This document shows, piece by piece, positions 30,013-33,531 of a stretch of 36,063 nucleotides of DNA. Source of the stretch: Synechococcus sp. CO36386bin_29 (GTDB taxonomy: Bacteria; Cyanobacteriota; Cyanobacteriia; PCC-6307; Cyanobiaceae); NCBI GenBank assembly GCA_011523835.1, contig WTFZ01000097.1:1-36063 (forward strand), given 5' to 3'. Under the pieces are notes generated by a model. The model ran no database searches. It was not told the origin of the DNA and was given only the letters and a program-made list of their open reading frames with translations. The position numbers and the translations under genes are program-made. The first letter of the stretch is position 1, and every line of letters begins with the position of its first letter.

Positions 30013-30783
30013 TCAAATCCAGGGGTCGTCCTCAGGTTCAGCACGAGATCGGTCCCGACGCGGCTCACCGTGATCAGACCAATTCTCGTCATCCCAGGCT
30101 TCGCGTTGATCGACGGAGGATGAACGTGCATCAGACCAGTGATCATCGAGCTCCTCACGGCGATAAGGCTCTTCCCAGGGCGGTTCCTCCAGCCAGCCTT
30201 CCAGTCGCTCTCCAGCACGATCACCGAACAGCTGCAGCTGTTCACGCCAGTGACGGGAGCGCCTCACCAAATCCTGACGGACACTGGCGCGTGCCTGCGG
30301 AAGATCATCGAGATCCCGAAGGGCCGTGGAAACCCGTCCCGGTTGCTGATCGACGATGCGGTCGGGGCTGAGACGCCAACGACTGCTGCCGGGAAGCCTT
30401 GGATCGCTGCGGGAGACGAGGTAGTAGAGGATCTGACCGGATGTGGGAACAAACGCGAGATCGGCAACCTGACCGAGCCGCTGGCCATCCCGATCGAGGA
30501 GATCTGCATCCAACAGCGTGGGCAGTCGATCCAAGGTCAGCTGATCGGTCTCCGCTGGACGTCCTTTCACGAACACCTGTTGGTCATCCACGCCGCGGCA
30601 TTGATCCAACCTCCAGACATCCCGACTGTTGCGCAGAGCGGAAGGACGGCTGACCCAACCGAGAAGGCGATGCACTGGAGGGTGCATCCAGGCCATCACA
30701 CCTGGTCCATGGTCGAGGCCCTGATCACAACGCACACGATGGCGCAGCAGATCACTGAGCAGAAACGGATCGGGCAGGGGCAA
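30013..30783 (-). CDS. PRC-barrel domain protein of unknown function
   Basis: A 256-residue protein lying between dnaN (3 nt upstream) and purL. A PRC-barrel fold is visible at about residues 88-155: LLDADLLDRDGQRLGQVADLAFVPTSGQILYYLVSRSDPR, ending in WRLSPDRIVD. A related half-repeat (LGWVSRPSALRNSRDVWRLDQCRG...QQVFVKGR, about 41-75) may be a first PRC unit. The last 60 residues are low complexity, rich in Trp, Glu, Asp and Arg (EEPPWEEPYRREELDDHW, DPWI end), probably disordered. PRC-barrels occur in RimM and photosystem-related proteins and mediate protein contacts. I recall the same position in Prochlorococcus genomes, so it is probably conserved, but its function is unknown. Confidence 0.78.
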   Translation of the reverse strand: MPLPDPFLLSDLLRHRVRCDQGLDHGPGVMAWMHPPVHRLLGWVSRPSALRNSRDVWRLDQCRGVDDQQVFVKGRPAETDQLTLDRLPTLLDADLLDRDGQRLGQVADLAFVPTSGQILYYLVSRSDPRLPGSSRWRLSPDRIVDQQPGRVSTALRDLDDLPQARASVRQDLVRRSRHWREQLQLFGDRAGERLEGWLEEPPWEEPYRREELDDHWSDARSSSVDQREAWDDENWSDHGEPRRDRSRAEPEDDPWI

Positions 30784-30786
30784 GGC

Positions 30787-31956
30787 TCAGGAGCGAATCT
30801 GCACGGGCATCACGAGATAGGTGAGGCCGGAACCATCCTCTGCGGGAGAAAGAATGGCTGGGGTGGTCGGTGCATTGCAAGACAAAACGATACGTTCACC
30901 ATCCATGGCTTTGAGGCCATCAAGGACATAGCGCACATTGAAGGCAATCTGGACCTCTTCTCCTTCGATCTGAGCGGGCAAGGACTCAGATCCACTGCCC
31001 ACATCCTGAGCGTCGGCCGAGATCTGAATCAACCCCTTGGAGGGATCACTGCTGATCCTCACGACATTGTTGTGTTGATCCGCAAGCACAGCGATCCGCT
31101 CGAGGGACGCCACAAAGGCCCGACGATCCATGCCGATGGTGCGACTAAAAGTCTCGGGAATCAGCTGTCGGTAGTTGGGATAGGTCCCCTCAAGGGTTCG
31201 ACTGGTGACCATCTGATCAGCGGCCAGCACCACCACCTGGCCACGCTCGAAGAAAAGACTGACAGGATCGCTGCCTTTCCAGCCGGCCATCAAGCGCTCC
31301 ACTTCACGCAGCGAACGAGCAGGAAGGGTGACGGCCAGGGCTGCGCTCTCATCAGTTTCAGCACCCTCGGCACCAGCGATGGCGTCCTGCAGGGCATCGT
31401 CAACGCTCAGCACAGCCAAACGGTGACCATCGGTGGACGCAGCCTCGAGGCGGGTTTGATCGAAACGCAGATGCACCCCGGTGAGCAGCTGCTTGGCTTC
31501 GTCTGAACTGCTTGCAAACAGGGTGCTGCGTAAGGCCCGAACCAGAGCAGCGGGGTCAAGCTTGACCGCTGTGCCGTTTTCCACCAGCGGTAGATCAGGA
31601 AAATCATCAGCCGGCATGCCACGCATCTGATAGCTGCCGCTGAGACTGGTGAGTTCCACCTGATCGCCGGAGTCAGCGGTGGCCAGAGTGATCGGGGAAT
31701 CGCTGGAAAGGCGAGAGACGATCTCGCCGAAGAGGCGGGCAGGAAGCGTGACCGCTCCGCTGGTCTCCACGGATGCCGGCAGAGAGGTCTGAATTCCAAG
31801 GCTGAGGTCAAACCCCGTCAGGCTGAGGCGATCCGTCCCGGCATCGGCGGTGAGCAGCACGTTGGCTAGCACCGGATGAGTCGGACGGGATGCGACGGCC
31901 CGGCTGACCAGCTGAAGTGCGGTATTGAGTTCCGTTTGGGAACAGACCAGTTTCAT
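30787..31956 (-). CDS. dnaN: DNA polymerase III sliding clamp (beta subunit)
   Basis: DnaN, the ring-shaped processivity clamp of the replicative polymerase. The 389-residue protein shows the three repeated clamp domains: residues 1-120 starting MKLVCSQTELNTALQLVSRAVASRPTHPVLANVLL, the middle domain with LLTGVHLRFDQTRLEAASTDGHRLAV, and the last domain with FNVRYVLDGLKAMDGERIVLSCN, ending in GLTYLVMPVQIRS, which matches the conserved YLVMPVRL-like clamp end. The ATG start is well placed. It is the first gene of a compact leftward unit (dnaN, PRC-barrel, purL, purF). The region upstream is the origin candidate. Confidence 0.97.
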   Translation of the reverse strand: MKLVCSQTELNTALQLVSRAVASRPTHPVLANVLLTADAGTDRLSLTGFDLSLGIQTSLPASVETSGAVTLPARLFGEIVSRLSSDSPITLATADSGDQVELTSLSGSYQMRGMPADDFPDLPLVENGTAVKLDPAALVRALRSTLFASSSDEAKQLLTGVHLRFDQTRLEAASTDGHRLAVLSVDDALQDAIAGAEGAETDESAALAVTLPARSLREVERLMAGWKGSDPVSLFFERGQVVVLAADQMVTSRTLEGTYPNYRQLIPETFSRTIGMDRRAFVASLERIAVLADQHNNVVRISSDPSKGLIQISADAQDVGSGSESLPAQIEGEEVQIAFNVRYVLDGLKAMDGERIVLSCNAPTTPAILSPAEDGSGLTYLVMPVQIRS

Positions 31957-32040
31957 CGCGTTGCTAACCGCAGCTGAAGAAGAAGAGATCCCAAGCTTTC
32001 ACAGGCAAGCCGGAAGCGCAATGGCACGGAGTGAAAGTGG

Positions 32041-32098
32041 CTCAATTCTCTTCTACTGATTCAGAAAAGGATTAAGAGAAGAACTACTAAACAGCCGT
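32041..32098. other. A+T-rich stretch, possible DNA-unwinding element
   Basis: This segment is clearly richer in A+T than the surrounding GC-rich sequence and sits between dnaN and the DnaA-box-like motifs. It contains an inverted repeat TTCTCTT (32046-32052) / AAGAGAA (32074-32080) and an ACTGATTCA (32055-32063) that recurs at the first DnaA-like box. Confidence 0.35.
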
Positions 32099-32116
32099 AG
32101 AAGGGGATGGGGAAAG

Positions 32117-32125
32117 CGTGGAAAC
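32117..32125 (-). promoter_or_regulatory. DnaA-box-like motif GTTTCCACG
   Basis: GTTTCCACG on the minus strand differs at two positions from the cyanobacterial consensus TTTTCCACA. It lies between the A+T-rich stretch and the two plus-strand boxes. Confidence 0.35.
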
Positions 32126-32200
32126 CCCTGCAATGCCGTTCTCAGCACTGCTTTTCAATCCGCACAGGGTTGGGGAAATTGTTCGGGGTTCTGAGGAACG

Positions 32201-32220
32201 GTTGCTGTTTTCCACTGATT
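32201..32220 (+). repeat. 20-bp direct repeat, copy 1, with DnaA-like box
   Basis: GTTGCTGTTTTCCACTGATT occurs identically here and 64 bp downstream. It contains TTTTCCACT (32208-32216), one mismatch from TTTTCCACA. ACTGATTCA at its end recurs in the A+T-rich stretch. Confidence 0.6.
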
Positions 32221-32264
32221 CAACAGGCTGAGGAAATCCGATCACCGGTGAGATGGTCAGGTTC

Positions 32265-32284
32265 GTTGCTGTTTTCCACTGATT
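32265..32284 (+). repeat. 20-bp direct repeat, copy 2, with DnaA-like box
   Basis: Exact second copy with TTTTCCACT at 32272-32280. The centre-to-centre distance of 64 bp is about six helical turns, which would put both boxes on the same face of the DNA. Confidence 0.6.
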
Positions 32285-32368
32285 GATTCAGGGGGTTGTT
32301 CGGGTTGTCCCCAGGCAGTTCTTCATCCGGTTGTCACCGCTGCCGGGGTTTGACGTGTCATCTGCCCA

Positions 32369-32397
32369 TCAAAAAACCCCCTGTTCAAGGGGGTTTC
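32369..32397 (-). terminator. Rho-independent terminator of thrC
   Basis: AAACCCCC (32374-32381), a 7-nt loop and GGGGGTTT (32389-32396) form an 8-bp stem; on the minus strand it is followed by a run of T. It lies about 30 nt past the thrC stop and shields the origin-like region from thrC transcription. Confidence 0.85.
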
Positions 32398-32424
32398 TTG
32401 AAGACCGATTGTTTTGATGGAGGA

Positions 32425-33531
32425 TCAGAAGCCCATCACACGGGCCACTGTCCCAAGATCGGGATCCAGATCGGTGTGGAAGGCCGCATCGTTGTTCTTG
32501 ATGGCGCAATCGGGATCTTTCAGTCCATTGCCGGTGAGGACGCACACCACCGTGGCTCCAGTTGGCACTTCCTCTTTTCTTTTGAGAAGACCTGCCACTG
32601 AGGCAGCGCTCGCAGGCTCACAGAACACCCCTTCCTGTCCGCCGAGCAGTTTGTAGGCCTCGATGATCTCGGCATCCGTTACGTCGAGGAAGTCACCCTG
32701 GCTGGCCTTGCGGGCGGCAATCGCCTTCTCGCGGTTCACAGGATTGCCGATGCGGATCGCTGTGGCGATCGTGTCGGGGTCCGTCACTGTGGTGTTGTTG
32801 ACCAGTGGAGCGGAGCCACTGGCCTGGAACCCCATCATTCGCGGGAGCTTGCGGCTGCGTCCTGCCTGGTTGTACTCCTGAAAGCCCATCCAATAGGCCG
32901 TGATGTTTCCCGCGTTGCCCATGGGAATGCAGAGCCAGTCCGGTGCTTCACCCAGGGCATCGATCACTTCGAACGCCGCTGTCTTTTGCCCCTGCAAGCG
33001 AAAGGGATTGACGGAGTTCACCAGGGTGACCGGGAACTGATCCGACACCTCGCGGACGATGTCGAGGGCTCGGTCGAAATTTCCGCGGATGGCCAGCACC
33101 TCTGCGCCGTAGACAAGCGCTTGGGCCAGCTTTCCCTGGGCGACGTAACCGTCTGGGATCAGTACAAAGGCCCGCATGCCGGCTCGGCGTGCATAAGCAG
33201 CGGCGGCCGCCGATGTGTTGCCTGTGCTGGCGCAGATCACGGCTTCGCAATGGGCTTCCTTGGCTTTGCTGATCGCCATGGTCATGCCCCGATCCTTGAA
33301 GGATCCCGTGGGATTCAGGCCGTCATATTTGACGTACACCTTCACATCACGGCCGATGCGTTCAGCAACGGATGGAACGGGGATTAGAGGAGTGGCTCCT
33401 TCGCGGAGGGTTACCACTGGAGTCGATGCTGTCACCGGCAACCACGGCCTGTAGGCCTCGATCAACCCCGGCCAGTCCTGGTGGACTGGTGCCGGGGAGA
33501 AACGGCGGCGAAGGGCGTTGATCACTGACAC
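32425..33531 (-). CDS. thrC: Threonine synthase
   Basis: ThrC, a PLP enzyme converting O-phosphohomoserine to threonine in the cytoplasm. The 368-residue protein has GATPLIPVPS (45-54), KYDGLNPTGSFKDRGM with the PLP-binding Lys79, ASTGNTSAAAAAYARRAGM (asparagine loop), the phosphate-binding IPMGNAGNITAYW, and VFCEPASAASVAGLL plus VLTGNGLKDP at the C-terminus, matching the shorter fold-type II threonine synthases of cyanobacteria and Gram-positives. The start is GTG; a second GTG two codons later is possible. The gene points at the origin-like region and ends with a strong terminator. It is preceded by the DUF1400 gene, 53 nt away. Confidence 0.95.
   Translation of the reverse strand: MSVINALRRRFSPAPVHQDWPGLIEAYRPWLPVTASTPVVTLREGATPLIPVPSVAERIGRDVKVYVKYDGLNPTGSFKDRGMTMAISKAKEAHCEAVICASTGNTSAAAAAYARRAGMRAFVLIPDGYVAQGKLAQALVYGAEVLAIRGNFDRALDIVREVSDQFPVTLVNSVNPFRLQGQKTAAFEVIDALGEAPDWLCIPMGNAGNITAYWMGFQEYNQAGRSRKLPRMMGFQASGSAPLVNNTTVTDPDTIATAIRIGNPVNREKAIAARKASQGDFLDVTDAEIIEAYKLLGGQEGVFCEPASAASVAGLLKRKEEVPTGATVVCVLTGNGLKDPDCAIKNNDAAFHTDLDPDLGTVARVMGF

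Follow-up and report, generated by a model that had tools for sequence, protein, structure and literature searches.

Does the gap between dnaN and thrC in Synechococcus sp. CO36386bin_29 mark the place at which copying of its chromosome starts? Marine picocyanobacteria rank with the most abundant photosynthetic cells, and read-depth estimates of their growth rate rely on a known origin. The stretch of DNA analysed here (the window, 36,063 nt) is a whole contig of a MAG of 2.14 Mb in 206 contigs that is 85% complete. A first-pass annotation had proposed an origin at this point, on the grounds of a long gene-free stretch directly upstream of dnaN, an A+T-rich segment, several DnaA-box-like motifs, and a thrC gene that points at the gap and is closed by a strong terminator. 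All of these features are borne out. The gap is the longest gene-free stretch of the window on a rough ORF map, it abuts dnaN, its GC content is 0.51 as against 0.60 for the window, its A+T-rich segment lies at about 32045–32100 (60–64% AT), and a motif scan recovered every one of the named motifs in its place. This gap is almost certainly the start site of chromosome copying, and the locus is laid out as follows:

31957–32424, no strand: dnaN–thrC intergenic region, almost certainly oriC (468 bp)
30787–31956, minus strand: dnaN (sliding clamp), transcription leading away from oriC
32425–33531, minus strand: thrC, transcription heading towards oriC
32368–32401, minus strand: predicted intrinsic terminator closing thrC, hairpin of −26.7 kcal/mol (z −3.9) with a T-tail when read in the direction of thrC

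A scan of the gap against Rfam gave no match near the gathering score, and the candidate RNA element there was rejected.

Because the MAG is too fragmented for a chromosome profile of its own, strand skew was profiled on Synechococcus WH7803, the closest complete genome found (2.37 Mb), whose dnaN is 94% identical and whose gap is homologous; its public record begins inside that gap, at the tandem boxes described below. Forty-one stretches, 20 kb long in forty cases and 7 kb in one, sampled 34% of the WH7803 chromosome. Mean GC skew was +0.027 for the stretches up to 1.2 Mb and −0.031 for those beyond it, up to 2.37 Mb, and AT skew fell into the identical two blocks with signs opposite to those of GC skew. 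In the best two-break fit, the origin falls between the last sample and the first and the terminus lies at about 1.2 Mb, almost diametrically opposite; none of 100 shuffles fitted as well. The strand-skew switch that characterizes an oriC is thus found at this locus in WH7803, and the GC-skew check that the first-pass annotation had proposed for its reading, once run on that genome, put the best origin split in the homologous gap rather than far from it. Within the window itself, the cumulative AT-skew maximum lies at 32133, beside the tandem boxes, but the cumulative GC-skew minimum lies at 30274, about 1.8 kb from the core, which counts against the origin reading; the window's own skew is only consistent with an origin, as the window is too short to place one alone and gene direction also shapes local skew.

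Adjacency to dnaN is standard for cyanobacterial origins (PMC4674748). Here it is found in a conserved gene order: among 80 picocyanobacterial loci fetched for comparison with the window, the arrangement thrC–gap–dnaN is kept in 77, with a gap of less than 1 kb and mostly of 370–530 bp, and outside these 77 thrC was unplaced or farther off. WH7803 is probably present twice among the relatives (G001 and G089), with only one of the two in the set of 16 genomes used below. When the gaps are aligned, about seven boxes on both strands occupy roughly constant places. Those of the window outside the conserved core are:

32305–32313, plus strand: DnaA-box-like TTGTCCCCA (weak), where relatives often read CTGGGGAAA at the aligned place
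32272–32280, plus strand: DnaA-box-like TTTTCCACT, inside copy 2 of a 20-nt repeat
32229–32237, minus strand: DnaA-box-like ATTTCCTCA, the aligned place in relatives being most often TTTTCCCCA
32208–32216, plus strand: DnaA-box-like TTTTCCACT, inside copy 1 of the 20-nt repeat
32171–32179, minus strand: DnaA-box-like ATTTCCCCA, from the motif scan and the alignment with relatives

The sites TTGTCCCCA at 32305 (plus strand) and ATTTCCTCA at 32229 (minus strand) are additions to those annotated earlier. A cluster of DnaA boxes beyond chance, as expected of an oriC, is present both in the window and across the relatives. TTTCC[AC]C occurs five times in the gap, for which first-order Markov versions of the gap predict 0.42, and nine times in the remaining 35.6 kb of the window (Poisson P ~2e-7); in the 77 gaps, TTTTCCCCA was observed 70 times vs 1.7 expected and TTTTCC[N]C 227 times vs 21 expected. 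The motif scan found no box in the window that matches TTTTCCACA exactly. The earlier reading of the boxes therefore stands only in part: the motifs are real and clustered, but core conservation shows the key boxes to be the tandem GTTTCCACG/CTTTCCCCA pair rather than the TTTTCCACT pair, and where boxes of the S. elongatus type had been cited, those of picocyanobacteria follow TTTTCC[C/A]C rather than TTTTCCACA. Both TTTTCCACT boxes are enclosed by an exact 20-nt direct repeat, GTTGCTGTTTTCCACTGATT, at 32201–32220 and 32265–32284 (64 bp apart); the WH7803 counterparts of its two copies differ from each other.

Conservation in the gap is highest in a core on the minus strand at 32063–32125, rather than at the TTTTCCACT boxes; in this core, two tandem DnaA boxes are followed by a 4-bp spacer, by triplets that align with DnaA-trios and by the least stable 30 bp. 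In the window this core reads GTTTCCACG CTTTCCCCA TCCC CTT CTA CGG CTG, then TTTAGTAGTTCTTCTCTTAATCC, and it is made up of:

32117–32125, minus strand: tandem DnaA box 1, GTTTCCACG, part of a tandem pattern unique in the genome
32108–32116, minus strand: tandem DnaA box 2, CTTTCCCCA (contains TTTCCCCA), abutting box 1 without a gap
32104–32107, minus strand: GC-rich spacer TCCC, 4 bp, the average spacer length in PMC8287927
32092–32103, minus strand: proximal triplets CTT CTA CGG CTG, which align with DnaA-trios that read CTA-CTA-CTA in other cyanobacteria
32064–32090, minus strand: distal run of NTN triplets, nine in all, which read 3'-NAN-5' on the opposite strand
32063–32092, no strand: predicted DNA unwinding element, the least stable 30 bp of the gap

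One of the closest known systems is the basal unwinding system (BUS) of B. subtilis, in which tandem DnaA boxes, a short spacer and DnaA-trios (consensus 3'-GAT-5') serve strand opening; SeDnaA likewise requires both boxes and trios to open strands in vitro (PMC8287927). The window resembles it in having two tandem boxes, a short GC-rich spacer and a triplet array adjoining the least stable DNA of the gap. A BUS has its tandem boxes no more than 3 bp apart; in the window they abut directly, each with two mismatches to TTTTCCACA. The triplets, of the form C[T/G][A/G], align with the 3'-GAT-5' trios and lie at a single fixed offset in 75 of the 76 genomes in which the array was located. The easily melted A+T-rich element that should adjoin the boxes of an oriC is found at 32063–32092, and in 75 of the 77 genomes the least stable 30 bp likewise fall just past the tandem boxes, for which chance would give about 16%. 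The window departs from the BUS in two respects. First, triplets 2–4 of picocyanobacteria carry C for the central A of 3'-GAT-5' in over half of the genomes. Second, under the strict published rule (at least three A-centred trios, with a spacer of no more than 16 nt from a box), which 35 of the 77 gaps satisfy, the nine A-centred trios of the window start 17 nt past box 2, one base beyond the limit. Judged by sequence, either the C-centred triplets or the distal A-centred run may be what DnaA grips.

The strongest aligned block, towards dnaN, reads box–box–GCCC–CTA-C[G/T]A-C[G/T]A-C[G/T]G–T-rich, and the comparison defines a candidate opening core of 60 bp. Twelve of 16 genomes contain the tandem pattern TTTCCMC-N2-TTTCCMC exactly once, always at the dnaN-gap locus (taken as the first 100 bases of single-contig records, or as adjoining the dnaN gap), and none of the 16 holds a second copy; the reversed control pattern gave one occurrence in all 16 genomes. 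From these alignments, the core and the boxes are clearly under constraint. A clear core, as TTTTCCACATTTTCCACAGCCCCTACTACTACT, lies upstream of dnaN at seven loci of other cyanobacteria as well (for example, TTTTCCACATTTTCCACAGCCCCTACTACTACTG), and since the same core is seen there, that of the window is, judged by its sequence, the ortholog of a widespread cyanobacterial origin core. The position, anatomy and conservation of the origin can all be read directly from these comparisons.

Skew, box clustering, synteny, the conserved core and the least stable DNA adjacent to it all support the origin reading first proposed, and the whole is very probably best explained by a single chromosomal origin with a DnaA box array, opening at the core and two-way forks. 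By analogy with the work in S. elongatus and B. subtilis, from which DnaA binding, duplex opening and bidirectional firing would carry over, DnaA would load on the array of about seven degenerate TTTTCC[C/A]C-type boxes and, from the tandem pair at 32108–32125, would spread over the 4-bp spacer to the DnaA-trios in the adjacent A+T-rich strand. The duplex would be opened at about 32063–32092, and helicase loading would be followed by two forks, one proceeding via dnaN and the other via thrC. In S. elongatus PCC 7942, oriC similarly lies near dnaN at the skew shift point and is bound by DnaA (PMC7198777), although its boxes are of the TTTTCCACA type, whereas picocyanobacteria have mostly TTTTCC[C/A]C boxes and few that match TTTTCCACA exactly; the likeness in the core (tandem boxes, spacer and trios) is drawn from other cyanobacterial loci. 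The oriC of the circular chromosome of Cyanothece ATCC 51142 also adjoins dnaN and has DnaA boxes and an AT-rich stretch (PMC4674748), but with three perfect TTTTCCACA boxes there in place of the approximately seven degenerate ones of the window.

The gap could instead be a regulatory region of dnaN only, with boxes for DnaA-dependent control of that gene and the true origin elsewhere. The boxes would fit such a role, as would a second conserved element immediately upstream of dnaN:

31997–32021, minus strand: conserved 25-nt element TTGCRCWTC-N8-CTGTGAAA, a few tens of bases from dnaN on its upstream side

However, regulation of dnaN would not account for the switch of whole-chromosome skew at the gap in WH7803, for a tandem-box pattern that lacks a second copy in 16 genomes, or for an order of boxes, spacer, trios and unstable DNA that is the order of an unwinding core, and we regard this explanation as highly improbable. 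Another very unlikely explanation is that the gap is an ancestral oriC, still marked by skew, in a lineage that now replicates independently of DnaA or from multiple origins, as known for Synechocystis 6803 and Nostoc 7120 (PMC7198777); the degenerate boxes and the failure to find dnaA in the MAG would suit it, but irregular skew accompanies multi-origin replication (PMC7198777) whereas that of WH7803 is strong and regular, the core and boxes are clearly constrained, and dnaA is kept by all near-complete relatives, with the DnaA recognition motif GGKDHTTV intact in those read. As dnaA is present in all 33 relatives with a completeness of 90% or more, its absence from the 85% complete MAG is best read as incomplete assembly; in WH7803 it lies at 0.70 Mb, away from oriC.

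Within the single-origin reading, the boxes and trios have drifted in picocyanobacteria. In other cyanobacteria, represented by 29 dnaN loci, the 800 bp before dnaN contain several TTTTCCACA boxes at 14 loci, a single box at one and none at the rest. TTTTCCCCA and TTTTCCACA number 70 vs 10 in the 77 picocyanobacterial gaps and 3 vs 93 in the other cyanobacteria (Fisher P ~5e-34, a value that ignores relatedness). The first triplet is CTA in 68 of 76 picocyanobacterial genomes; at the second, third and fourth triplets, 41, 43 and 47 of the 76, respectively, have G instead of the middle T, which gives C instead of A on the strand that DnaA reads. CTACTACTA is kept in low-GC Prochlorococcus and in other cyanobacteria, and CTACGACGA is found in high-GC Synechococcus/Cyanobium. 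Genomic GC correlates with CCCC boxes (Spearman 0.54) and inversely with T-centred triplets (−0.40); the drift of boxes and trios thus tracks genomic GC, and mutational bias is therefore a sufficient explanation. A more tentative proposal, which we consider rather less probable than not, is that the origin code has changed together with its reader, such that picocyanobacterial DnaA would prefer TTTTCC[C/A]C and accept C-centred trios (3'-GCT-5') for the central adenine. If true, the change would test naturally which contacts with bases are needed to open an origin. An altered recognition motif was looked for as the cause of the drift and set aside, GGKDHTTV being the same in all sequences compared (18 picocyanobacterial, 13 other); close to it, DnaA does show group-specific changes, such as E to A after SSRRR.

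The location of this origin is ordinary, and depositors already start complete genomes at the dnaN gap; what is modestly new is the alteration of the boxes and of the trios, together with a second element before dnaN that occurs once per genome. The literature searched, whose coverage was incomplete and left out most subscription papers, yielded no description of TTTTCCCCA as a DnaA box, of the box and trio drift or of the 25-nt element. The natural series of boxes and trios from CTACTACTA to CTACGACGA puts to the test the claimed need of DnaA-trios for a central adenine, and searches for TTTTCCACA boxes only will under-detect picocyanobacterial origins. TTTTCCACW alone proved misleading as an origin marker, with 17 scattered sites in the MAG and, in WH7803, no site in the 140 kb that precede the origin or the 45 kb that follow it.

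Of 16 picocyanobacteria, 14 carry the 25-nt element, each in a single copy. The right half of the element looks like a DnaA box that is reversed and has diverged, with CTGTGGAAG in other relatives; promoter or operator of dnaN and diverged box are candidate, unproven roles. Far from oriC, an inverted pair of perfect TTTTCCACA boxes is found in the MAG (G000:C29:10734 and 10778) and in WH7803 (1819368 and 1819412), with a spacing of 44 bp in both, and could possibly be a DnaA regulatory or titration site. A second perfect TTTTCCACA pair lies at G000:C126:2683 and 2977 in the MAG (294 bp) and at 177534 and 177827 in WH7803 (293 bp), where TTTTTCACAGC stands before the box at 177534 and forms a tandem pair with it. 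Finally, one relative has three additional matches, all of them weak, to the DnaA AAA+ family (G097:C1:357614, 1244135 and 1262941), which are open frames of about 275 aa with equal scores and resemble a multi-copy mobile-element ATPase.
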